64,000 nt of DNA from Clostridium brassicae. Its GTDB lineage: Bacteria > Bacillota > Clostridia > Clostridiales > Clostridiaceae. Below the pieces are notes generated by a model that saw only the letters and a program-made list of their open reading frames with translations, was not told the origin of the DNA and ran no database searches. Both the position numbers and the translations under genes were made by a program. Position 1 is the stretch's first letter. Each line of letters opens with the position of its first letter. Positions 1,852 through 14,179 of this stretch are shown here, in pieces. The stretch is from positions 1 to 64,000 of the forward strand of contig NZ_JAPQFJ010000003.1 of NCBI RefSeq assembly GCF_026738875.1, in the 5' to 3' direction.

Positions 1852-3090
1852 ATGAAGAAAAAAGTCATTGCTTTGGTAACTAAAATATTATTAGTATGTT
1901 TAACATTAGGATTAATTAGCTCATTTGTATTAGAGTTTAGAGTAAAGGGTATTGAATTAACGGATCAAAAAGAAAATTTAGTAGAAGAAATATTAAAAAA
2001 TAAGCCTGATGTTTTTGGAAATATACTGAAAGAACCTGATAAGTATGAAGTGCAAATTTTGTATACTCAAATAGATAGGGATTCTAATAATAAGCCTTCT
2101 TTTAAATCTTTTAAATATAGGGTAGATAAGGACAAATACTTTTATCCAGCAAGCTCAGTGAAACTTTCTGCATGCGCTTTAGCTTTAGAAAAATTAAATA
2201 ATTTGAGTATAGATAAAAATACACCTTTAATAATTGAAAAAGGGAGAGAGTCTCAGAGTACAGTAGATAAGGATAGTACATCAGAATCTAAACTTCCAAC
2301 TATAGCAAATTACATTAAAAAAGTTTTGGTAGCTAGTGATAATGATGGATTTGATAGGTTGTATGAATTTTTAGGGCAAGAGTATTATAATGAGACACTT
2401 TGGAAAAAAGGATATAAGGATGTACTCATATTACATAGATTAGGAAATTCTATGAATTTAGAAGAAAATAGATATACAAATCCTATGAAGTTTTATAATA
2501 AAGATAAAGTTATATATAATCAGCCTATGTTATATAATAGTAAATCTTATAAAAATAATATTACAGATACAAAAAAAGGAAAAGCCTATAAGAGTGGAGG
2601 AAGATATATAAATGAACCTAAAGACTTTTCAAATTCAAACTATTTTTCTATAGAATGTTTGCAAGAAGTTCTAAAAGCTATTGTCTTTCCAGAAGCACTA
2701 ACAGAGGAAAAACGATTTAATTTGAAAAAGGAAGACTATGAATTTTTAAAAAAACATATGTGTATGCTTCCAAGAGAGTGTAATAGTCCTAAGTATAGTT
2801 TAAAGGATAGTTATGGAAAGTACTTTATATTTGGTGATAGTAATGACAAAATTCCTGAAAATATAAAAATATATAATAAGATTGGATGTGCTTATGGATA
2901 TTTAATAGACAATGCATACATAGTTGATGAAACTAAGGGCATAGAATTTTTACTTACAGGGGTAATATGTTCAAATAAAAACAAGATTTTTAATGATGGA
3001 AAATATGAATACTATACAGTAGGTATGCCTTTTTTATCAAGCGTAGGAAGAGAAATTTATAAATATGAGGAGAGCAGAAAAAAAGCATAA
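1852..3090 (+). CDS. Membrane-anchored serine hydrolase, class A beta-lactamase-like
   Basis: The 412-residue protein has an N-terminal hydrophobic segment (about 5-28) with no lipobox, so it is probably an anchored exported protein. The SxxK motif is Ser101-Ser-Val-Lys104, followed by an SDN motif in VASDNDGFD and a late K-I-G triad in NKIGCAYG in place of the usual KTG. This motif order is that of class A beta-lactamases and related PBP-like hydrolases (Beta-lactamase2 family). It lacks the compact 260-290-residue size of true lactamases, so a cell-wall peptidase or an enzyme of unknown substrate is equally likely. The SD is GTGGGGA upstream of the ATG. A strong bidirectional hairpin follows. 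Confidence 0.7.
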   Translation: MKKKVIALVTKILLVCLTLGLISSFVLEFRVKGIELTDQKENLVEEILKNKPDVFGNILKEPDKYEVQILYTQIDRDSNNKPSFKSFKYRVDKDKYFYPASSVKLSACALALEKLNNLSIDKNTPLIIEKGRESQSTVDKDSTSESKLPTIANYIKKVLVASDNDGFDRLYEFLGQEYYNETLWKKGYKDVLILHRLGNSMNLEENRYTNPMKFYNKDKVIYNQPMLYNSKSYKNNITDTKKGKAYKSGGRYINEPKDFSNSNYFSIECLQEVLKAIVFPEALTEEKRFNLKKEDYEFLKKHMCMLPRECNSPKYSLKDSYGKYFIFGDSNDKIPENIKIYNKIGCAYGYLIDNAYIVDETKGIEFLLTGVICSNKNKIFNDGKYEYYTVGMPFLSSVGREIYKYEESRKKA

Positions 3091-3563: not shown

Positions 3564-4931
3564 TTATTTATAAGATAATTCTATAGTATTCAAAGTTTTT
3601 TTATAGAAAATAGTAAAGGATATAATGGTTACTATGGAGCCTACTATATCTGCTATTGGTTCTGCAAATAACACTGCAAATAATTTGTCTTCTATAAATA
3701 ATGGAAGTATAAATATAAGTGGTATTAACAATACTATTTTTCTAAGTAAAGCTAATATAAGAGATGACTTTGCTTGTCCTAAAGCCAAAAATGTTTGCTG
3801 ACAGGCTATTTGTGCGCCAAATATACCAATACCTGCAAAATATATCCTTATACTCCAAGATGTAATTGCTACAAGTTCAGGTTTGCTGTTAAATATATTA
3901 ACAAATAGTTTTGGAAGTAGCATCAAAGATCCCCACATAATAATTGTATAGGAAATGCAACATAGTATTAACAATTTAAATGTACTTTTTACTCTTTCTA
4001 TTTTTTTTGCTCCAAAATTATAGCTTATAATAGGTTGAGCTCCTTGGGTTAATCCAATTATTGGAAGAAGTATTATTTGCATAATGCTACTCATTATAGT
4101 CATTGCGCCTACAGCTAAATCACCACCATAGGTTTGTAATTTACTATTTAAAAGTATAAGTACTAAGCTTTCTGTGGATTGCATTACAAAAGGGGAAATT
4201 CCTAAAAGTATAATAGATAAAACTACCTTTTTATTTGGAACTAAATATTTTTTCCTTATTTTGATTATACTTTTCTTGCCTAATAGGAAAAATAATACCC
4301 ATATAGCCGATATACATTGTGATGTAACAGTAGCTATGGCAACTCCTTTAACTCCTAAATTTAATACAAATATAAATAGAGGATCTAAAACTATATTTAT
4401 AAGAGCACCAATCATTACTGTAATCATTCCTGTTTTTGCAAAACCCTGAGTATTTATAAAGGGATTCATTCCTAATGATATTAGAACAAATAGGGTTCCA
4501 ATAAGATATATTGTTAAATAATCTTCGGCAAATCCAATAGTTGAATTACTTGCTCCAAATTTCCAAAGGATTGAATTTTTAAATATTAAAAATACTGTAG
4601 TTAATATTATCGATAATATAACTATAACTGAAAAACTATTACTCATAATTTTTTCAGCGCTATCATTATCGTTTTCTCCCATTTTGATGGCGGCAAGTGG
4701 GGCACCACCCATTCCTATCAAAGCACTAAAGGCTGAAATTATTATGATGACAGGAAAGGCAATTCCTACTCCTGCCATAGCTAGTGCTCCATTTTGCATT
4801 CTTCCTATAAATATTCTATCTACTATGTTATAAAGTACATTCACTATTTGTGCAATTATAGCTGGTGTTGCCAGTTTAAACAATAAATTTCCTACATTAC
4901 CACTCCCTAAATCTGGTGAGTTTTTATTCAT
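3564..4931 (-). CDS. MATE family multidrug/Na+ antiporter
   Basis: An integral membrane protein of 455 residues with about 12 hydrophobic segments in two similar halves, as in MATE efflux pumps. Recognisable features are the N-terminal GNLLFKLATPAIIAQIVN stretch and the repeated Gln/Gly-rich motif (LTQGAQPIISYNFGA) in the second half. MATE proteins export cationic drugs in exchange for Na+ or H+. I place the start at the internal ATG at 4931, because GGAGAG lies 7 bases upstream; an open frame continues 27 codons further with no good ribosome site. A tetR gene lies 155 bases upstream on the same strand, implying local repression and induction by substrate. Confidence 0.85.
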   Translation of the reverse strand: MNKNSPDLGSGNVGNLLFKLATPAIIAQIVNVLYNIVDRIFIGRMQNGALAMAGVGIAFPVIIIISAFSALIGMGGAPLAAIKMGENDNDSAEKIMSNSFSVIVILSIILTTVFLIFKNSILWKFGASNSTIGFAEDYLTIYLIGTLFVLISLGMNPFINTQGFAKTGMITVMIGALINIVLDPLFIFVLNLGVKGVAIATVTSQCISAIWVLFFLLGKKSIIKIRKKYLVPNKKVVLSIILLGISPFVMQSTESLVLILLNSKLQTYGGDLAVGAMTIMSSIMQIILLPIIGLTQGAQPIISYNFGAKKIERVKSTFKLLILCCISYTIIMWGSLMLLPKLFVNIFNSKPELVAITSWSIRIYFAGIGIFGAQIACQQTFLALGQAKSSLILALLRKIVLLIPLIFILPLFIEDKLFAVLFAEPIADIVGSIVTIISFTIFYKKTLNTIELSYK

Positions 4932-5086
4932 GACATTCTCTCCTTTTATATGAAATTTTATAATGTATGATGTTTTACTGTAATATAATATTTTAGCTAT
5001 ATAAATTTTCATAGAAAATAAATTTAAATAGCTATATTTATATTAATGGAGATAATTTCTAAACAGTAATAATTTAAAAATAAAAG

Positions 5087-5716
5087 CTACTTAACTAAAG
5101 CTTTACTTGATTTACTTATATAGAAACCGTTAACTAGTTCCAAAATAAACTTAGTGTTTTCAGCGACTTGATTTAAGGATTGATTGCATAGCACAAAAGC
5201 TGTGGTAATAATACTAAGTATTAATTTATCTCTTTCATTATCATCTAGTTGCAGTTTGTACTTATTTTCTAGTTCTTTCAATAATTTTTCTAAATGATTC
5301 ATTAAGTTATCCTGTATAAATTTTGTAAATTCATTTTGTGATGAATTTTTTATTTCATTTCCACTATGATTGGGTTTTAAGGCCATTTCTTGTATCTTGA
5401 ATATTTGGCGTCCAATTCCATTTCTTCTGTTAAGTTCATTAAATATGCTTTCTAAAAATAACTCTAATTTTTTTCCTACATTGTAATTAGAATTAGTTAC
5501 TTCTTTGAGGATAGAGAAAGTTTTATCCCAGCTATATTTTAAAACACTTATAAATAAGTGATCTTTATTGGAATAATAATTATATATAGTACCTACTGAA
5601 ATGTTTAAATCTTTTGCTATTTTGCGCATACTAACTTCAGAATAGGAACTATGTATGAATTTTTTTTCAGCACAATCTAGTATTTTTTTTTCTAAACCAT
5701 CATATTGTTTGGGCAT
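5087..5716 (-). CDS. TetR family transcriptional regulator
   Basis: The 209-residue protein has an N-terminal DNA-binding domain (about 8-55) with the classic TetR helix-turn-helix (SMRKIAKDLNISVGTIYNYY) and a divergent all-helical ligand domain, as usual for the family. It is the first gene of a minus-strand pair with the MATE pump and probably senses a pump substrate. Its promoter region carries two palindromic operator-like sites (5741-5787), consistent with autorepression and control of the pump. GGAGTG precedes the ATG. The ligand cannot be predicted. Confidence 0.85.
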   Translation of the reverse strand: MPKQYDGLEKKILDCAEKKFIHSSYSEVSMRKIAKDLNISVGTIYNYYSNKDHLFISVLKYSWDKTFSILKEVTNSNYNVGKKLELFLESIFNELNRRNGIGRQIFKIQEMALKPNHSGNEIKNSSQNEFTKFIQDNLMNHLEKLLKELENKYKLQLDDNERDKLILSIITTAFVLCNQSLNQVAENTKFILELVNGFYISKSSKALVK

Positions 5717-5885: not shown

Positions 5886-5914
5886 TTGCTATTACGATAG
5901 TATGTCTGTATAAT
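5886..5914 (+). promoter_or_regulatory. SigmaA-type promoter of the ECF transporter locus
   Basis: TTGCTA (5886-5891) and TATAAT (5909-5914) are separated by exactly 17 bases. Transcription would start near 5921, giving a leader of about 185 bases before the first gene. Confidence 0.65.
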
Positions 5915-5920
5915 ATATGT

Positions 5921-6010
5921 GAAATAATAAACGAGAAGTATAAATTACATAAGGGAATGTGTTTTAAATTCACATTAGCTTTGCCCGAGCTCTCCGTGCT
6001 CGGATTTTTA
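5921..6010 (+). promoter_or_regulatory. Structured leader, cobalamin-riboswitch-like core with terminator
   Basis: From 5951, AAGGGAATGTG, then AAATTCACA and GCCCG follow in the order and spacing of the AGGGAA...GGTG..AA..CC....CxGxCCCG core of cobalamin riboswitches. The stem TGTG/CACA is retained. A terminator stem CCGAGC/GCTCGG (5985-5990 with 5998-6003) followed by ATTTTTA overlaps the end of this core. The usual GCCACTG B12 box is absent, so this is either a shortened or divergent variant, or a plain attenuator that resembles one by chance. It precedes a predicted cobalamin transporter, which raises the odds. Confidence 0.35.
5985..6010 (+). terminator. Leader terminator upstream of the ECF operon
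   Basis: Six G/C-rich base pairs (CCGAGC with GCTCGG, 7-base loop) are followed by ATTTTTATTT. It sits between a good promoter and the first gene of the operon, the position of an attenuation terminator. Confidence 0.65.
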
Positions 6011-6104
6011 TTTGTATAGGGAATTATATAGTGTAAGGATTTAGTATTAAATTCAAGCTACTTTATTTTTGAAGTAGAAAATCACCTAATGTAAGGAGGC
6101 AATA

Positions 6105-6965
6105 ATGGATAAGATGCCTTTGAAATTGCATGTAATGACTGCTTGTATAATAGTGACAGTATTAATGATTATTATTTTTTTTACTAATAATCCAATTATT
6201 TTATTTTCGGTGTTTATTTACTGTAGTATAGTTTTTATGTATACAAGGAATAAGAGTAAGTTAGTAAATGGTTTTATTTATTTTATACCTTTCTTATTTG
6301 TTTCTATAATAATAAATTTTTTATTTATAACAGAAGGAAAAATAATTTTGTTTGAGATAAGTAATAAAGTATTCACTTTAGAATCATTAGTATATGCTGT
6401 TATATTTTCTTTTAAACTTCTTCTTATAATTTATATATCTATGATTTTGAATATTTTAGTTGATTCTGATAATGCAATTTCTTTTTTCTCTAGTAAAATA
6501 CCTAAGACAACTTTGCTTGTAATGATAGGAATAAAGTTCTTTCCTATAATGAAGAATAGAATTAATAGTCTAAAAAATATTTATGCAATAAGAGGGGTAG
6601 AGTTTAATGGAAAAAGCTTGAAAGAAAAAATCTTAGCTTACGTACCTATTTTTTCAATATTATTAGAAAACTCACTAGAAGGTGCTTTTGACATAGGAGA
6701 AGCTGCTTATGTTAGAGGATTTCTAAGTAGTACAAGAACTATATATGATAAACAAAAATTTCAATATAAAGACTATATTCTATATGCTGAATGTGCTACT
6801 ACTTTAATATTTGGTATAATATTTAAAATATACAGTTTTTTGGAGTTTGATATTTATGGGGGTATTAATATTAACAAATCTATAAATATAGGAGTTATAA
6901 GTATTTTTATAAGTATTTTGGTTATAGGATTTACAAGTTTTTTTAAAGTAGATAGAATGGAGTAG
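6105..6965 (+). CDS. ECF transporter transmembrane (T) protein
   Basis: The 286-residue integral membrane protein has about six hydrophobic segments and a cytoplasmic region with two short Ala/Arg-Gly signatures (AIRGVEF near 166 and AYVRGFL near 202). These are the coupling-helix motifs of EcfT/CbiQ proteins, which bind the two ATPase domains. It couples ATP hydrolysis to movement of the substrate-binding S protein. AAGGAGG lies 6 bases before the ATG. The ATPase gene starts 4 bases after its stop, so translation is likely coupled. Linkage to a CbrT-like S gene suggests a dedicated cobalamin (CbrV-like) role; that is inference. Confidence 0.85.
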   Translation: MDKMPLKLHVMTACIIVTVLMIIIFFTNNPIILFSVFIYCSIVFMYTRNKSKLVNGFIYFIPFLFVSIIINFLFITEGKIILFEISNKVFTLESLVYAVIFSFKLLLIIYISMILNILVDSDNAISFFSSKIPKTTLLVMIGIKFFPIMKNRINSLKNIYAIRGVEFNGKSLKEKILAYVPIFSILLENSLEGAFDIGEAAYVRGFLSSTRTIYDKQKFQYKDYILYAECATTLIFGIIFKIYSFLEFDIYGGININKSINIGVISIFISILVIGFTSFFKVDRME

Positions 6966-6969
6966 TGAA

Positions 6970-8580
6970 ATGAAATATATAAATATAAGAAACTTGAACT
7001 ACTATTATCCTAGAAGTACCATTAGGGCTTTGAATAATATAAGATTAACCATTAATAAAGGAGAAATAGTATTTATCGCAGGGAAATCAGGTTCAGGTAA
7101 ATCTACTTTGGCCAAATGTATTTCAGGATCTATACCTAATTTTTATGGGGGAAAAATATCAGGGGAAATAAGTATCAATGATGTTTGCATTAATAAAATC
7201 AGCAATAGTGATAGAAGTAAAGAGATTACTATGGTTTTTCAAGACCCAGAAAGACAACTCCTTATGAATAAAGTTCATAGAGAAATAGCATTTGGTTTAG
7301 AAAATATAGCTGTAGAAGCAAAAAATATAAAGAGAAGGGTATTTGAAGCCCTTCAGTTCTCTAACATTTTAGATTTAGCATATAGAGATATAAGTACTTT
7401 ATCAGGAGGGGAAAAGCAGAAGGTAGCTATTGCTTCAGCTATAGCTTATTTACCTCGATGTATAATTTTAGATGAACCTACATCCCAATTAGATCCTGCA
7501 GCTGCAGAAGAAATTATAAAGTTAATAAAAAAGGTAAATGAAGAGCTTGGAATTACAATCATAATAATTGAGCAAAGAATAGACAAATGGTTCGATATAG
7601 CAGATAGAATATTAGTAATGAAAGAAGGAAACATAGGTTTTAGTGGAGACAAAAAAACTTTATATAATATTGAGGACAAGTATATAAGAGATTTTCTTCC
7701 TTCATACATGAAATTTTCTAAATTTATAGGTATGGATAAGATGCCTTTAAGTTTCAAAGATGCAAGATTGAAAATAGAGAAGTTAGGTTTAAATCTAAAA
7801 GAAAGAAAAAGAGAAAATATTAATTTTTCAAATATACTTATTCAAATTAAAAAACTGACCTGTGGTTATGAAAATATATCAGTTCTAAAAAATGTTAGTT
7901 TAGATATAAAAGAAGGGGAATTTATAAGTGTATTAGGAGCAAACGGATCAGGTAAAAGTACTTTGTTAAAGGCTATAATGGGAGTTATAAAATACAAAGG
8001 AAGCATAAAAGTTCTAGAGGAAGAGGTAAAGAAAATTAAAACAAGAAATATATCTAAGAAAATAGGATATGTTTCGCAAAATCCCAATGATTATATTTCT
8101 AAAGATACAGTATATGATGAATTGAAATTTACATTAGATAACTATGGCATAAAAAATTATGAAATTATAGATGAAACATTAAAAAGATTAGATATTTATG
8201 AAATTAGAGATAAGAATCCTAGAGACATAAGTTCTGGAGAAAGACAAAGAGTTGCAATTGCATCTATTCTAGTAATGAAACCTAAAATTTTGATATTAGA
8301 TGAACCTACTAGAGGTCTTGATTATAATGTTAAAATAAATCTAGGTGAAACTTTGAAAGATTTAAATGATAAAGGAACTACTATAATTATGGTCACTCAT
8401 GATATAGAATTTGCAGCTAAATACTGTACAAAGTTTACTCTTATGTTTAATGGAGAAATAGTATGCTATGGAAATTCTGAGGATGTTTTAGGGGAAGGTA
8501 TATATTATACTACTGAAATTAATAAGTTAGTTAGAAGTAAAAATCCTAAAATATTTACTTTAGATGATGTTTTTAAGTAA
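6970..8580 (+). CDS. ECF transporter double ATPase (fused A and A' domains)
   Basis: 536 residues with two complete ABC domains. The first has Walker A GKSGSGKST at 38-46, signature LSGGEKQ and Walker B IILDEPTSQLD. The second has Walker A GANGSGKST at 323-331, a signature SSGERQR (Ser for Gly at the second position) and Walker B ILILDEPTRGLD. Fusion of both ATPases in one chain is known in some ECF systems such as YkoD and CbrU. It powers the adjacent T and S components at the membrane. The start follows the T gene by 4 bases. A dispersed repeat, not a terminator with a clear T-run, separates it from the S gene. Confidence 0.9.
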   Translation: MKYINIRNLNYYYPRSTIRALNNIRLTINKGEIVFIAGKSGSGKSTLAKCISGSIPNFYGGKISGEISINDVCINKISNSDRSKEITMVFQDPERQLLMNKVHREIAFGLENIAVEAKNIKRRVFEALQFSNILDLAYRDISTLSGGEKQKVAIASAIAYLPRCIILDEPTSQLDPAAAEEIIKLIKKVNEELGITIIIIEQRIDKWFDIADRILVMKEGNIGFSGDKKTLYNIEDKYIRDFLPSYMKFSKFIGMDKMPLSFKDARLKIEKLGLNLKERKRENINFSNILIQIKKLTCGYENISVLKNVSLDIKEGEFISVLGANGSGKSTLLKAIMGVIKYKGSIKVLEEEVKKIKTRNISKKIGYVSQNPNDYISKDTVYDELKFTLDNYGIKNYEIIDETLKRLDIYEIRDKNPRDISSGERQRVAIASILVMKPKILILDEPTRGLDYNVKINLGETLKDLNDKGTTIIMVTHDIEFAAKYCTKFTLMFNGEIVCYGNSEDVLGEGIYYTTEINKLVRSKNPKIFTLDDVFK

Positions 8581-8582
8581 AG

Positions 8583-8720
8583 TTAGAATGGCTAGACATC
8601 GGATAAACAGGATTCTTAGGAGTTTTACTCCTTAGAAGCCGTTATCCAGGGTTGTACCATTCTTTATTCTCACTAAAAGGTGAGAGTATTAGAATGGCTA
8701 GACATCGGATAAACAGGATT
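8583..8720. repeat. Palindromic dispersed repeat, copy 2, with flanking 32-base direct repeats
   Basis: A 32-base unit starting TTAGAATGGCTAGACATCGG occurs at 8583-8614 and again at 8689-8720. Between them lie a hairpin (TTAGGAG/CTCCTTA), the left-arm motif GTTATCC and a second stem CCATTC...GAATGG. The layout matches copies 3 and 4. It fills the gap between the ECF ATPase and S-component genes, so it is probably present in the operon mRNA. Confidence 0.8.
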
Positions 8721-8768
8721 GCTCTAGGATTTATTATGAGTTATAAAATATAAATGAGGATAATTAAT

Positions 8769-9458
8769 ATGAGGAAAATTAGCATAGGTGTTGCAATAAG
8801 TACACTGATAATCCTTGTGGTTTTTAGTGTGAAATTTGCCAATAGTAAAAATTTAGGTATATTAATTACTTTAGGGGTATTATTAACATTATTTTTTAGT
8901 TACTTTTATTTTGAAAAAAGTTCTATGGGAACTAAGGAGATAGCATTAATAGCAACGCTAGGCTCTTTTGCAGCAGTTTGTAGAGTACCTTTTGCTATGA
9001 TTCCAAATGTACAGCCAACTACTTTTTTAGTGGCTATTTCGGGGCTTGTATTTGGGAGTTATGAAGGGTTTTTAGTTGGAAGTTTAGCAGCTTTTATATC
9101 TAATATTTTTCTTGGACAGGGACCATGGACACCATGGCAGATGATGGCATGGGGGATAGTTGGAGCTATTTCTGGATTAATAGGTAAGACAAACAAAAAA
9201 ATTTCTAGTGAAAAGTTTTCAGTTATATGTTTTGTATATGGAATTCTATTTGGATGGATTACAAATTTATGGTTTATTGTAGGTAGTTTAAAAATAATAA
9301 ATATAAAAACAATAATGGCGTCTAATTTAACATCTCTGACTTTGGATATAATGCATGCAGGAGGAAATTTTATATTTTGTATTATATTTTTTGATAACAT
9401 TTATAAAGTATTATTTAGATTTAAAGAGAGATTAGAAATCACCTACTTAAAAGACTAA
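8769..9458 (+). CDS. ECF transporter S component, CbrT-like (predicted cobalamin)
   Basis: 229 residues with six or so membrane spans. The segment around IPNVQPTTF and the later FLGQGPWTPWQMMAWG are hallmarks of the S-component group predicted, and in Lactobacillus delbrueckii shown, to bind cobalamin (CbrT). S components capture the vitamin and dock on the T/A module, here encoded just upstream. I choose the ATG at 8769 because GAGGA sits 8 bases upstream; an in-frame ATG at 8754 has no ribosome site. The following surface proteins with transcobalamin-like domains support the substrate. A different corrinoid or another vitamin remains possible. Confidence 0.7.
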   Translation: MRKISIGVAISTLIILVVFSVKFANSKNLGILITLGVLLTLFFSYFYFEKSSMGTKEIALIATLGSFAAVCRVPFAMIPNVQPTTFLVAISGLVFGSYEGFLVGSLAAFISNIFLGQGPWTPWQMMAWGIVGAISGLIGKTNKKISSEKFSVICFVYGILFGWITNLWFIVGSLKIINIKTIMASNLTSLTLDIMHAGGNFIFCIIFFDNIYKVLFRFKERLEITYLKD

Positions 9459-9654
9459 TTTTTATAGTAATTGATTTCTATATATTAGTAATTGACAATT
9501 GGTTAATTTGAATTTTATTTAAAACAGAAATACTTCTAATATTGGTTATTGGGCATTGATTACCAGTTACTATGAAGGGTTGGATGTCAAAACAAATATA
9601 AAATCAATAAGTGTGGTAGATGTTACACTAGATATTAAAGGGAGTGATGTAATA

Positions 9655-11469
9655 ATGAAAAAAAGCAATTATGGAAAAATGAAGATAATGAGCTTCGTTT
9701 TGTTGTTTACTTTTTTTATAACTCAAGGAATACTAGGGAATTTTACAAAAGTAAAAGCCGAAGAAAATATTTCAGTGGAAGTATTGGTAGAGAGTCATAA
9801 TAAGATTTTAGCATTAGACAAAGCTAATAAGGACAATGCCTATGGAGCATTAAAAGAAGTGCTAGATAAGAATAATATAAAAATAGAGGCTCAAGATAGT
9901 CAGTATGGTAAATATATTTCTTCTATAGCAGATGTGAAAGCAGGTAAATTTGGTGGATATGATGGATGGCTTTATGCAGTCTACAGAGATGGAAAATATG
10001 AAAATATAATGACTTCTATTGATGGATTCACTTTAAAAAATGGAGATAAGCTTATAGTATATTATGGAGATATGGGTACTTTACTTGCAAATAAAATTCA
10101 GTATTCTACAAAAGAAGCTAACAAAGAGTTAACTATATCTTTAAATAATTATTATGAAGATTGGCAAACAAAGAAGGAAATTGTTCAACCAATAAAAGGG
10201 ATACAAGTTAAATTAGATGGAAAATCAGTAATTTTAGATGAAAATAAAATTTATTTAAAAGAAGGGCTTGATAAAGGAGAACATTTATTACAATTAATAG
10301 ATTTTAGAGAAGCTAAATGTCCATTAGTAGTAAATGACACTATAAAATTCAAATTAGAACAAGCAGCAGCGATTCCAGGGAATAATAAAGATGAAGATTC
10401 TACAGGTGATGCAAACACTTCAATAGATATAGATAAGGAAATTGCTAGTCTTTCAAAATATATAGCTAAATCAGAAAAATATGATTTATGGGCTGAAATA
10501 AGTATGAATAAGCTAGGAATAAAATCTAATGAAAAATTTATAAATAGTAGAAATCAATATATAGAAGATAATGCAAAAGAGATAGCTAAAAATGGAACAG
10601 AAGATTTCACTAATATAGAATTAGAAAAGTTAATGATGACTTTAGTAAATAATGGGTATAATCCAAGCAGTTTTCAAGGACATGATTTAGCAAAAGATCT
10701 ATATAATAGAGATTTAAAAGAATATTTAATTAATGATAAAGTGTTTGCTCTTATAGCATATGATTATTGCAATATAGAGAATAAAAATAATATAAATCGA
10801 GATAAATTAGTTGAATCTTTATTGAGTGGTAAACTTTCTTATAAGGTTGAAGGTAAAGATATGGTAGGGTGGGCTTTTTATGGTGATAAAGTTGATCCTG
10901 ACATGACAGCAATGGTAATAACAGCTTTATCTAAATATTATAATAACAACTCAAAAGTAAAAGAAACTGTAGATAAAGCTATAAAAACCTTAGCTTATTC
11001 TGAAAATGAAAATGGATATATACAAAGCAATTATGGTATATCAAGTGAAACATTATCAGCAGTTATTGTAGGATTGAAATCTATAGGGGTAGATGTTGAA
11101 AAGGGAGAATTTGCAAAGAATAAAGGAAATCTTCTTTCAGCACTAGTGTCATTTAAAGATGATAATGAAATATACAAACATCTTGTTGAAGACAAAAATG
11201 GTAATTATATGTCTTCAGAACAAGCTTTAAGAGCGTTAATAGCTATTAAAGAATCAAAAGGAGAAAAATACAATTATTATAATAATAATATAAAAACTGA
11301 AAACCTAAAAGAATATACTGTAAAACAAAGCATTGAAAAAGATCAAGATTCAACAGAACTTCCTAAGACAGGAGGATTAGTAGATACTAGTGTGCTAATT
11401 AGTTTAGGAACTTTATTTGTCTTGGTAGGATTATCATTACAACTAAAAAATAGAAGAAAAACTAATTAA
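9655..11469 (+). CDS. LPXTG-anchored DUF4430 protein with helical domain, transcobalamin-like
   Basis: 604 residues from the ATG at 9655, which has AAAGGGAG upstream; the frame is open 33 codons further back without a ribosome site. Residues 1-35 are a signal peptide ending VKA. A DUF4430 domain spans about 45-135, with DGWLYAV at 103-109. A long region, about 240-545, is mostly helical with repeated hairpin-like segments resembling prenyltransferase/alpha-alpha-barrel repeats. The C-terminus has LPKTG at 569-573, a hydrophobic helix and an RRK tail, so sortase should attach it to the wall. Eukaryotic transcobalamin also combines an alpha-alpha barrel with a DUF4430-like beta domain. With the upstream ECF genes this suggests cobalamin capture at the cell surface. 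Confidence 0.7.
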   Translation: MKKSNYGKMKIMSFVLLFTFFITQGILGNFTKVKAEENISVEVLVESHNKILALDKANKDNAYGALKEVLDKNNIKIEAQDSQYGKYISSIADVKAGKFGGYDGWLYAVYRDGKYENIMTSIDGFTLKNGDKLIVYYGDMGTLLANKIQYSTKEANKELTISLNNYYEDWQTKKEIVQPIKGIQVKLDGKSVILDENKIYLKEGLDKGEHLLQLIDFREAKCPLVVNDTIKFKLEQAAAIPGNNKDEDSTGDANTSIDIDKEIASLSKYIAKSEKYDLWAEISMNKLGIKSNEKFINSRNQYIEDNAKEIAKNGTEDFTNIELEKLMMTLVNNGYNPSSFQGHDLAKDLYNRDLKEYLINDKVFALIAYDYCNIENKNNINRDKLVESLLSGKLSYKVEGKDMVGWAFYGDKVDPDMTAMVITALSKYYNNNSKVKETVDKAIKTLAYSENENGYIQSNYGISSETLSAVIVGLKSIGVDVEKGEFAKNKGNLLSALVSFKDDNEIYKHLVEDKNGNYMSSEQALRALIAIKESKGEKYNYYNNNIKTENLKEYTVKQSIEKDQDSTELPKTGGLVDTSVLISLGTLFVLVGLSLQLKNRRKTN

Positions 11470-11500
11470 TAGTAGAGGATTACCTTCTAACTATAAATAG

Positions 11501-11533
11501 CCCCATAATTTATTTTTCTTATGAATTATGGGG
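11501..11533. other. Intergenic hairpin
   Basis: A perfect 10-bp stem (CCCCATAATT with AATTATGGGG) with a 13-base loop lies between the two DUF4430 genes. It has no T-run on either side, so it may be a weak terminator or an mRNA processing or stabilising structure. Confidence 0.45.
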
Positions 11534-11613
11534 TAAGCTAAGTTATGTAGGGTTTATAATAGATAAGATTTATTAGTTGAATGGGTAGTATATATTTAAG
11601 AGGTGATATATAT

Positions 11614-12321
11614 ATGAAGAAAAAAATTAGATTGATTATAGTAATGGTTGCTTTATGTGTAAGTGTAATACTTGGAGTTAAGTATTATCAAACCAATATC
11701 AGTGAACCAAAAAACAATAAAAAAACTGACATAGTTTTAGAAAATGCTCAAGTAAAGGAAAAAGAAGAAAAGACAGTCGATCCTTCTAACAGTGAAATTA
11801 AACATGAGGAAAAACAAGAAGATAAAAAAGCTGTAGTAGAGAATAAGAAAAGTATTAAAAGCGAAGATGAACATAATTCTAAAAATGGATCAAGTACTAG
11901 TTCAAAACAGCAAAGTAGCAATACTTTAATAAAACAAACAAGTAAAAAAGAAACAGATAGTAAACAAGCAGGTAGCAAAGAAACAAATAATAAAGAAGTT
12001 CAACAAATAAAAAATGTTTTAATAAAAGATGAAGTAAGTGGCAAGGTAATTGGGAATATTTATTGTAATCTAGATAATAGAAGTGCAGCGGATGTTACCA
12101 TAGATGTCTTAAATAAAATGGGTATAAGATACAAAGCAGTAGGAAGTGGCGAGACAATATATTTTTCTTCAATAAACGGAATAAAAGAAAGATCTCAAGG
12201 ACCTTTAAGTGGATGGTGTTATTATGTAAATGGAAGTAAGCCATCAGTAGGGGCAGGATTATATAAGCTGAAGAATGGTGACAAGGTTCAGTGGGTATTT
12301 AAAAAAGATGGAGTGAATTAG
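11614..12321 (+). CDS. Membrane-anchored DUF4430 protein
   Basis: 235 residues from the ATG at 11614, which has AGAGGTGA upstream; an ATG 11 codons earlier lacks a ribosome site. An N-terminal transmembrane helix (about 5-24) has no lipobox. A long low-complexity Lys/Glu/Ser/Thr/Asn linker, about 35-130, follows. The C-terminal DUF4430 domain (about 145-235) has GWCYYVNG at 200-207 and ends in a short beta-rich tail. The layout suggests a tethered ligand-binding domain reaching out into the wall. It probably belongs to the upstream ECF/DUF4430 operon and could hand a corrinoid to the S component. Function is inferred from context only. Confidence 0.65.
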   Translation: MKKKIRLIIVMVALCVSVILGVKYYQTNISEPKNNKKTDIVLENAQVKEKEEKTVDPSNSEIKHEEKQEDKKAVVENKKSIKSEDEHNSKNGSSTSSKQQSSNTLIKQTSKKETDSKQAGSKETNNKEVQQIKNVLIKDEVSGKVIGNIYCNLDNRSAADVTIDVLNKMGIRYKAVGSGETIYFSSINGIKERSQGPLSGWCYYVNGSKPSVGAGLYKLKNGDKVQWVFKKDGVN

Positions 12322-12424
12322 TGGAATATTTAGAATTTATTAAATAAAATAATGAAAACCTATTCAATTTTTACATATTTTGGTTTATAATATAGTTACA
12401 AATGTAAACTGGGGGGATATTATA

Positions 12425-12658
12425 ATGTCAAAATGTCCATTTTTATCAACAGATGATAATAAGGTTAATTGTTTTAAAGAATGTTTACTTCATGAATATG
12501 AGAATGATAATGGAGAATGTCCGTTTAAAGCCATTTTAGAATCTATGGAATATGATGGGGTTTTTTTTAATAAATATAAAGAATTTGAAGAGGATAGTTG
12601 CAATGTATTAGAAGAGATATATAGAGAAAATAATTTTTTAGAAATCTTTCAAATTTAA
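12425..12658 (+). CDS. Small Cys-rich protein, unknown function
   Basis: 77 residues from the ATG at 12425, which has GGGGGGA upstream; an upstream in-frame start has no such site. The N-terminal half carries Cys at positions 4, 16, 20 and 32 (SKCPF, NCFKEC and GECPF), a spacing that could hold a metal ion. The remainder is acidic and helical. Proteins with the CPF...CPF pattern are common in clostridia but uncharacterised to my knowledge. It stands alone between the DUF4430 operon and pncB and ends at a shared terminator. Confidence 0.65.
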   Translation: MSKCPFLSTDDNKVNCFKECLLHEYENDNGECPFKAILESMEYDGVFFNKYKEFEEDSCNVLEEIYRENNFLEIFQI

Positions 12659-12660
12659 AA

Positions 12661-12695
12661 AGCAGAGAAAATATCTTTTCTCTCTGCTTTTTATT
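12661..12695. terminator. Bidirectional terminator between the Cys-rich gene and pncB
   Basis: AGCAGAGAAAA (12661-12671) pairs with the segment ending TCTGCT at 12688, with a two-base bulge, followed by TTTTATTTG. A-rich flanks give it a T-run on the minus strand as well. Confidence 0.8.
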
Positions 12696-12703
12696 TGTAT
12701 TTA

Positions 12704-14179
12704 TTATTTATAAAGGTCAGAATATTGATTTAGTAAGTCTTGCTTTAAATTCCATAATCTTCTTGATAAATCTACATAATAAGTATGAGGATTTTCAAAT
12801 CTTAAGACTTCTTCCCATAGTTTATTTGTTTCTTCTTTTGCAAAGTTTTGAATTTCTTTAACAGAAGGACTTTCATAGCATGGAATACCTTTATCAAATA
12901 TTTGTACCATTAGTTCTTTAGCATAATAATTTGTTAGTTTTTTCTTTTTCCATGTATGTACTGGATCAAATATTTCAAGAGGCACTGAATCATCTATTAC
13001 TTCATTGTTTAAACATATTAAGTCTGCAGTAGCTTTATTTGAACATTTATCAAATAATCTATAAATCTTTTTGAAACCAGGGTTTGTTATTTTTTCTTCA
13101 TTTTCACTTATTTTTATTTTAGGAATTACTTCACCATCTTTTTCTACAGCAACTAATTTGTAAACTCCTCCAAAGACTGGTTCTGATCTTGCTGTAATAA
13201 GTCTTTCACCTACTCCAAAGCTATCAATTTGGGCACCTTGACTTAGTACATCTGTTATTATATGTTCATCTAAAGAATTAGAAATTACAATTTGAACATC
13301 AGAGTAGCCGGCTTCATCTAAAAGGGCTCTACATTTTTTAGTTAAGTAGGTTATATCTCCGCTATCTATTCTTATTCCTTTTGGCCTGTATCCCATAGGT
13401 TTTAAAATTTCGTCAAAAACTTTTATAGCGTTAGGAAGACCTGATTTTAAAACATTATATGTGTCTACTAAAAGAAGACAATTGTCAGGATAAGTTTGAG
13501 CCCATGCCTTGAAAGCTTCATATTCTGTTGGAAATAATTGTATCCAACTGTGAGCCATAGTTCCAGAGGCAGGGATATTAAACATTTGCTCAGCTATTGT
13601 ACATGCTGTTGCAGAACATCCACCTATAATAGCAGAACGAGCACCATAAATAGCACCATCATAGCCTTGAGCACGTCTTGATCCAAATTCCATTACAGAT
13701 CTTCCCTCTGCTGCTCTACAAATTCTATTTGCTTTAGTTGCAATTAGCGTCTGATGGTTAATTGTTAAAAGTATCATAGTTTCAACAAATTGAGCTTGAA
13801 TGACAGGACCTCTTACACTAACTAAAGGTTCACCAGGAAATACTGGATTGCCTTCTGGAATAGCCCAAACGTCACATTCAAATTTAAAGTTTTCTAAATA
13901 GTGTAGAAATTCTTCAGAAAAAGTATTTTTACTTTTTAAGTATTCAATATCTTCTTCTGTAAATTTCAAATTAGCTAAATAGTCTATTAATTGTTGAACT
14001 CCTGACATAATGCAGTAACCACCACCATCAGGAACTCTTCTAAAGAACATGTCAAAGTAAGCTATTTTATCTCCAACGTTATTGTCTAAATAACCATTTC
14101 CCATTGTTAACTCATAAAAGTCAACTAACATTGTAAGATTTCTACCATTTTTAATATTCAGAAAATCACTATTAGTCAT
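12704..14179 (-). CDS. pncB: Nicotinate phosphoribosyltransferase
   Basis: 491 residues, the usual length for the long Firmicute form. It converts nicotinate, PRPP and ATP to nicotinate mononucleotide in the NAD salvage (Preiss-Handler) pathway in the cytosol. Recognisable parts are the N-terminal LVDFYELTMGNGY, MEFGSRRAQG, SGTMAHSW and the RIDSGDI phosphate-binding loop of type II phosphoribosyltransferases. AGGGGA precedes the ATG. It is monocistronic and faces the divergent helicase gene across about 260 bases. Confidence 0.92.
   Translation of the reverse strand: MTNSDFLNIKNGRNLTMLVDFYELTMGNGYLDNNVGDKIAYFDMFFRRVPDGGGYCIMSGVQQLIDYLANLKFTEEDIEYLKSKNTFSEEFLHYLENFKFECDVWAIPEGNPVFPGEPLVSVRGPVIQAQFVETMILLTINHQTLIATKANRICRAAEGRSVMEFGSRRAQGYDGAIYGARSAIIGGCSATACTIAEQMFNIPASGTMAHSWIQLFPTEYEAFKAWAQTYPDNCLLLVDTYNVLKSGLPNAIKVFDEILKPMGYRPKGIRIDSGDITYLTKKCRALLDEAGYSDVQIVISNSLDEHIITDVLSQGAQIDSFGVGERLITARSEPVFGGVYKLVAVEKDGEVIPKIKISENEEKITNPGFKKIYRLFDKCSNKATADLICLNNEVIDDSVPLEIFDPVHTWKKKKLTNYYAKELMVQIFDKGIPCYESPSVKEIQNFAKEETNKLWEEVLRFENPHTYYVDLSRRLWNLKQDLLNQYSDLYK

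Follow-up and report, generated by a model that had tools for sequence, protein, structure and literature searches.

A predicted energy-coupling factor importer for cobalamin with its own surface proteins in Clostridium brassicae

Scavenging of cobalamin (vitamin B12) by surface relatives of the animal carrier transcobalamin was proposed for Gram-positive bacteria by Burroughs et al. (2007, PMC1796856), and we describe here an operon of this kind in Clostridium brassicae, found in positions 1 to 64,000 of contig NZ_JAPQFJ010000003.1 (assembly GCF_026738875.1; this whole stretch is called the window). The sections of that article on the transcobalamin-type SLBB domain report its fusion to a toroid on either side, a Gram-positive anchor, and operons with a second SLBB protein and homologues of CbiO/CbiQ. 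According to the same sections, key B12 synthesis enzymes are usually lacking, and the carrier of animals is proposed to have been acquired from bacteria. The window locus has the same architecture and the same proposed job, and its DUF4430 domains (PF14478) place it in this SLBB clade. Because such loci were already described there, it is a further case of a system predicted in 2007, and the idea behind it is not new. Those sections name no S component (the substrate-binding subunit of an energy-coupling factor (ECF) transporter), the article has no riboswitch remnant of the window clade, and the words riboswitch, BioY, energy-coupling, S-layer and S-layer homology are absent from its main text. 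To that text, as searched, the present analysis adds a CbrT-type S component, cobalamin riboswitches near most loci, SLH and CWB2 domains as alternative anchors, and a decayed switch in front of genes that were kept. A compact operon with S, wall and membrane proteins given by coordinates makes the 2007 prediction of bacterial transcobalamins testable protein by protein.

CbrT of Lactobacillus delbrueckii has been shown to transport cobalamin and cobinamide (Santos et al. 2018, PMC5997447; structure 6fnp). The window S component is homologous to it over 166 residues, with IPNVQP and FLG.G.WT shared, and its N-terminus extends about 50 residues further ahead of the aligned region. In L. delbrueckii, as far as the available text of that study goes, the ECF module is shared with other S components and the gene stands in the run nrdJ-cbrS-cbrT-pduO, whereas the genes for the membrane coupling protein (T) and the ATPases (A) of the window lie inside the operon itself. 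The DUF4430 domain is homologous by profile to human transcobalamins and intrinsic factor (4kki, 5no0, 2pmv), and in both cases a toroid and a beta-grasp domain share one chain. In contrast to the human proteins, the window protein has the reversed domain order (DUF4430 is N-terminal) and a wall anchor; the toroid halves do not match each other, and animals rely on receptor-mediated uptake where the window has an ECF importer. Nor did any window protein match, at E 0.1, PF01122, which we take to be the number of the eukaryotic cobalamin-binding protein family. In Bacteroides, BtuG (capture) and BtuB (outer-membrane importer) are not known to be related in fold to the window proteins. An annotation-level link to CbrT exists in SEED, where the entry 'additional lipoprotein component of predicted cobalamin ECF transporter' is found. 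The surface B12-binding lipoproteins of Bacteroides, as described in the available text of PMC6143338, resemble the window proteins in capturing B12 at the surface ahead of an importer, in a Gram-negative cell. Two further sources, from the parts available, have no more bearing on the locus: fish proteins made of DUF4430 only (PMC4350170), and the cobalamin riboswitches of C. difficile, which precede cbiMNQO, synthesis genes and a homologue of BtuCDF (PMC11477304). With partial coverage of the literature, most subscription journals being outside it, we found in print neither a pairing of CbrT with a cobalamin riboswitch nor a riboswitch stub such as the one below, and no treatment of bacterial transcobalamin-like surface proteins later than that of 2007.

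The transporter and its predicted capture proteins

Judging from sequence comparisons, we consider the operon to be a group I ECF importer whose substrate is cobalamin or a closely related corrinoid, equipped with its own surface capture proteins (probability about 0.87). Its five genes lie on the + strand at 6105-12321 in a genome of 4.1 Mb (71 contigs):

6105..6965, + strand: EcfT (CbiQ family), membrane coupling protein; CbiQ 25.9 bits against a cut-off of 25
6970..8580, + strand: fused EcfA-EcfA' ATPase; two ABC_tran stretches, with TIGR04520 (391 bits) and TIGR04521 (370 bits) each over cut-off
8754..9458, + strand: CbrT-like S component (substrate-binding membrane protein); match to 6fnp, IPNVQP and FLG.G.WT motifs
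9655..11469, + strand: predicted wall-anchored capture protein; signal peptide (by eye), DUF4430, linker region, alpha/alpha toroid, LPKTG sorting signal
11614..12321, + strand: membrane-tethered DUF4430 protein; DUF4430 64.4 bits, hydrophilic linker of about 125 residues

A T gene, two ATPases and an S gene on the same strand in one operon (6105-9458) give, by gene content, the layout of a group I (dedicated) ECF transporter. The T protein and the fused ATPases named in the preliminary description were recovered by their family matches, EcfT through CbiQ and without a match in NCBIfam. All five frames are open in the window species and in the nearest relative compared, G295, whose S component is 96% identical. 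Between these two species dN/dS is below 0.5 in every gene, lowest in S (0.094) and highest in the tethered protein (0.43), with 0.27 for T, 0.21 for A and 0.19 for the LPXTG protein; these are counting-based point estimates, made at dS 0.17-0.32 with no test against neutrality.

When the S component alone was used as query against the PDB, a single protein matched, CbrT of L. delbrueckii (6fnp, E 4.8e-12). A profile of nine S sequences reached the same structure with E 3.1e-22, the next chain (4hzu) following at only 0.076. The two CbrT-type motifs described earlier were found in the S component, and both align with 6fnp, where they read IPNVQPVTD and FLGFGIWTLPQIFAYA. By sequence, the S component is thus closer to CbrT than to other solved S components. 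No NCBIfam model scored above its cut-off, the riboflavin model giving 27.6 bits, far below its cut-off of 99.

The two surface genes are likewise as first described, one LPXTG-anchored and one membrane-tethered, each with DUF4430 over cut-off; in the whole genome these are the only DUF4430 matches (E <= 0.001). The LPXTG protein ends in ELPKTGG...LKNRRKTN, that is, in the LPXTG motif, hydrophobic stretch and basic tail which form the signature of a sortase substrate, and it reaches 20.1 bits for Gram_pos_anchor (cut-off 20). Its start is most likely the ATG at 9655, as previously assigned, because the open reading frame (ORF) of G295 has the same 604 residues. In the tethered protein an N-terminal hydrophobic segment without a lipobox match precedes a DUF4430 domain that begins at residue 157 of 235.

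PDB searches with the capture or tethered protein as single sequence gave no matches. A profile of 34 sequences covering DUF4430 and the helical half of the LPXTG protein matched squalene cyclases in its helical part, with E values down to 1.2e-14, and for this reason we assign the helical half, by profile, to the alpha/alpha toroids. Weak similarity to alpha-2-macroglobulin was also seen there (0.005). Through DUF4430 the same profile matched transcobalamin-1 (1.4e-5), transcobalamin-2 (2.8e-4) and intrinsic factor (0.0018), as well as a bacterial solved domain (3u7z, E 5e-6). Both the helical repeat region and the likeness of DUF4430 to transcobalamin and intrinsic factor, claimed in the preliminary description, are therefore borne out. 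A profile seeded on the helical half alone found matching ORFs in 105 of 124 scanned sequences (123 loci and the window; a few of the loci overlap, as copies from a single genome).

We then compared 71 toroid proteins at E 0.01. They comprise the window protein and 70 others, drawn from 81 candidates 300-1250 residues long; of the 93 toroid ORFs that the 80 named loci (defined below) contain, 12 had been dropped for length and 11 more left out. SQHop_cyclase_C was matched by 42 of the 71, Prenyltrans by 40 and TED_complement by 19. An LPXTG anchor was present in 18 and an SLH domain in 16, and in genome G210 CWB2 repeats are carried by one toroid protein and one DUF4430 protein. By these matches, the anchor type varies (LPXTG, SLH, CWB2) around a constant core of toroid and DUF4430. 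Ig-like, SLH and further surface domains also occur on the surface proteins of relatives. Among 83 small proteins with a single DUF4430, 29 have a lipobox-like motif, and such a protein adjoins a T, A or S gene in at least 49 of 74 loci, some T genes having been missed.

Together, these features suggest a path for the ligand. In the cell wall, the LPXTG protein would hold it between the beta-grasp DUF4430 domain and the toroid, as transcobalamin does. The tethered protein, with its hydrophobic N-terminus and long linker, could then receive the ligand and present it to the CbrT-like S component, through which EcfT and the double ATPase would power import. The imported cobalamin may serve two enzymes, one of MetH type and one a radical-SAM protein that binds B12. 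What the sequences themselves show is the gene content, the homology, the co-occurrence, the riboswitches of relatives, the remnant and the low dN/dS. The nature of the ligand, the two-domain clamp, the order of hand-off and the loss of regulation discussed below are what we infer from these comparisons.

Ties to cobalamin in relatives and in the host

Among 291 Clostridia genomes, the S component was detected in 104 (E <= 1e-10) and DUF4430 in 133. DUF4430 was present in 100 of the 104 genomes with S and in 33 of the 187 without it, a contrast for which Fisher's test ignores shared ancestry. The co-occurrence of DUF4430 with CbrT-like S components, a check suggested along with the initial proposal, is thus near-universal in this sample. 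At the level of position, a DUF4430 gene lies within 10 kb of at least 77 of 109 S places, and 32 have none among the matches listed; 150 DUF4430 places were compared, so that the counts are lower bounds.

The named loci are the best 80 of at least 574 by S similarity. Three pairs among them (L087 and L090, L088 and L132, L044 and L098) each represent the same genome region twice, and in six the S gene was lost from the map by gene picking. Of the 80, 74 contain DUF4430, 68 encode a toroid and 59 show a match to a cobalamin riboswitch. Where DUF4430 is lacking (six loci), S is at most 2.4 kb from a contig end, so the neighbour may simply be missing. The riboswitch matches were obtained with a sequence profile made from 26 RF00174 matches (E <1e-4, counted at any position in loci that measure up to 20.7 kb), and in 52 of the 74 loci with the S gene on the map one stands 5' of S on the same strand. 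One arrangement seen often in the maps runs riboswitch, large DUF4430/toroid protein, small DUF4430 protein, T, A, S; the order of the window (T, A, S, large, small) is common to several Clostridium relatives.

With the Rfam model itself, RF00174 was found in 37 of 39 genomes bearing S, and within 15 kb of S in 27. These 39 were not drawn at random from the 104, since they combine the best S scores with chosen others, several of them with DUF4430 on the same contig. In G145, a member of the same genus whose S is 67% identical, the T gene is preceded by a complete cobalamin riboswitch (79 bits) whose end is 89 bases away, and a terminator lies in between; in G292, of the same genus, a cobalamin riboswitch likewise lies directly 5' of T. 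By these matches, the genomic tie of S to cobalamin holds in relatives through riboswitches, and the window locus keeps a remnant only. The ligand is accordingly read from relatives, because neither the window operon nor its genome has a recognisable cobalamin riboswitch. The near-universal company of S and DUF4430 and the cobalamin riboswitch usually found nearby thus speak for the link to cobalamin or corrinoids put forward initially.

The preliminary description had named, as contrary to its proposal, genomes in which DUF4430 accompanies S components for other vitamins. No clear case was seen in six of the 33 DUF4430 genomes without S. Cobalamin-riboswitch matches are present in three of their loci (L181, L183 and L184). 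The operon of L179 (10032-14234) combines genes for a short CbrT-like S and a DUF4430 lipoprotein with those for a B12-binding corrinoid protein, a RACo-type activator and a protein of the URO-D type; by gene content this is an independent corrinoid (corrinoid-methyltransferase) context for DUF4430. Of the other two, L180, a contig of 7 kb, carries nothing beyond DUF4430 and toroid genes, and in L182 a DUF4430 lipoprotein is accompanied by neither S nor toroid nor riboswitch match. A side observation concerns L183, where a second DUF4430 protein is found beside a divergent S and TrkA/TrkH potassium-transport genes (7215-13825); this divergent S pair lies downstream of a riboswitch-led pair of toroid and DUF4430 genes.

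The host appears to use B12 and probably cannot finish making it, since CobS was searched for in its genome and is absent. A MetH-type protein of 795 aa covers positions 2-855 of the 1182 of the metH model, and a CobA/BtuR-type adenosyltransferase was found as well, together with a radical-SAM protein that has a B12-binding domain. The genome of G295 has neither CobS nor RF00174. Among eight genus members, CobS is present in all three without the S component and absent from three of the five with it, a distribution that fits a scavenger.

Some further features of relatives can be mentioned here. The ATPases and S are fused in one ORF of about 800-870 residues in many Clostridia (L060, L062, L064, L066, L082 and others). 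CbrT-like S components also occur on three contigs of Thermoplasmatota metagenome-assembled genomes (L137, L145, L153), with DUF4430, T and A in two of the three and no riboswitch match. Ten genes upstream of the transporter in G210, suspected from their sizes to be cobalamin synthesis genes, were rejected as such, as they match other families or none.

The leader and its riboswitch remnant

Upstream of the T gene, three elements were delineated:

5886..5914, + strand: sigma-70-like promoter TTGCTA-17-TATAAT; 10 of 12 consensus positions, kept in G295
5940..5979, + strand: cobalamin riboswitch remnant, the 5' GGGAA/first-hairpin segment of about 40 nt; the rest of the aptamer is missing
5985..6012, + strand: intrinsic terminator; 6-bp stem (5 G-C), then ATTTTTATTT

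The promoter-like hexamer pair, whose first base is the start (5886) given to the locus in the preliminary description, is one of six found where shuffles give 3.2, and by itself is no evidence of function. The whole leader including the promoter is conserved in G295. The 388 bases 5' of T gave no meaningful Rfam match, and a scan of the window at gathering and relaxed thresholds returned weak unrelated matches only. The RF00174 search itself works, since 8 of 14 control genomes gave matches.

A profile built from the riboswitches of twelve relatives (nhmmer) placed its best match in the 64-kb window at 5940-5979, with E 0.085; on the G295 locus the corresponding match was also the best (E 0.0035). 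This score was reached by none of 2000 dinucleotide shuffles of each of the two leaders. In the alignment, ATAAGGGAATGTGTTTTAAATTCACATTAGC of the window and ATAAGGGAATGTGTTTTGAATCCACATTAGC of G295 stand against ATAAGGGAATGTGGTGAGAATCCACAACAGC of L102, which belongs to the 5' part of the riboswitch. The remnant runs directly into the terminator-like hairpin (5985-6003; one found, none in shuffles), which by eye occupies the same place as the terminators after the aptamer in G145 and other relatives. The terminator was probably retained from the riboswitch leader.

An aptamer without its remaining stems should not bind cobalamin. Because most of the aptamer is lost and the terminator kept, repression by cobalamin has, on this comparison, probably been lost in the window species and in G295. 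It is possible, although we would not rely on it, that this reflects a regulatory escape, with the import operon kept in a lineage lacking CobS and any recognisable cobalamin riboswitch while the switch was cut down to a stub on its old terminator. If so, B12 import would run at a rate no longer governed by cobalamin, or governed by a new signal to which the truncated leader responds. The locus would then offer a natural experiment in which the riboswitch was lost and the operon retained, the stub being conserved in two species.

Alternative readings and neighbouring sequences

Several observations weigh against an importer for cobalamin or a corrinoid with its own capture proteins. On the side of the proteins, the DUF4430 domain of the capture protein is barely above its cut-off (24.4 against 23.8 bits), a Pfam search with the window protein by itself finds no toroid family, and the toroid half of the profile finds cyclases in the PDB and not the toroid of transcobalamin. 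The best Pfam family of S is the riboflavin S component ECF-ribofla_trS (43.1 bits, over cut-off), ahead of ECF_trnsprt (34.1 bits, over cut-off), in a table that holds no CbrT model. As to regulation, RF00174 is absent at gathering score from the window, the front of the operon and the whole genome; 12 of the 39 genomes, some on short contigs, have no RF00174 closer than 15 kb to S, and two of the 39 have none anywhere. In the host, the MetH-type protein scores 486 bits, under the metH cut-off of 1011, and the radical-SAM protein is below cut-off for all NCBIfam models listed. The PF01923 adenosyltransferase is absent from all eight genus members, the window genome included, and G295, with the same operon, has a radical-SAM match only and no MetH-type match. 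Finally, CobS is the sole biosynthesis gene behind the scavenger argument, the searches having also covered two adenosyltransferase families and the B12-binding domain.

The substrate could be a precursor or part of cobalamin (cobinamide, cobyrinate diamide, dimethylbenzimidazole) or cobalt, and not complete cobalamin. T and A resemble CbiQ/CbiO, the available text of a review gives CbrUVT as a signature of cobyrinate diamide uptake (PMC8123684), and cobinamide is also taken by CbrT (PMC5997447). The CbrT-like S component argues against this reading, late precursors would probably be useless to a host without CobS, and a clamp of toroid and DUF4430 would suit a large ligand, so that we consider it improbable. 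A decaying operon, left over after loss of the riboswitch and no longer contributing, seems more improbable still. The genome has neither a cobalamin riboswitch nor CobS, the terminator still stands in the leader and dN/dS peaks in the tethered protein (0.43), as decay would have it; five open frames in two species with dN/dS of 0.09-0.43 at dS 0.17-0.32 and a MetH-type protein still in the genome argue against it. We give slightly less credit again to the view that the surface proteins are adhesins or enzymes that share transcobalamin folds, only the ECF part being vitamin-related. The best solved matches of the toroid, squalene/hopene cyclases and weakly alpha-2-macroglobulin, agree with that view, as do TED_complement in 19 of the 71 toroid proteins and the Ig-like, SLH and other surface domains of relatives. 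The near-universal co-occurrence with CbrT-like S, the shared riboswitch-led runs of genes, the matches of DUF4430 to transcobalamin and intrinsic factor, and its presence within a corrinoid-methyltransferase operon all speak against it.

One element inside the operon is not part of the system:

8585..8720, + strand: genomic repeat of 106-bp period between the A and S genes

It consists of two copies 106 bp apart with a strong RNA fold (z -3.85), one copy being present at this site in G295. A 30-mer of the repeat occurs at 20 places in the window genome with up to 3 mismatches and at none in the reversed control, and the genomic copies are often in tandem at a spacing of 106-128 bp. A regulatory RNA in the A-S gap was therefore rejected in favour of a genome-wide interspersed repeat.

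Just upstream of the operon and divergent from it are a MATE-type efflux gene and a TetR regulator (window 3564-5716), also present in G295; in G145 and G292 other genes lie just upstream of the riboswitch. Further upstream, the window encodes an erythromycin esterase family protein on the minus strand (233-1576, Pfam E 3.4e-35) and a Beta-lactamase2-family protein (1852-3090, Pfam E 6.2e-9), the latter 93% identical in G295.

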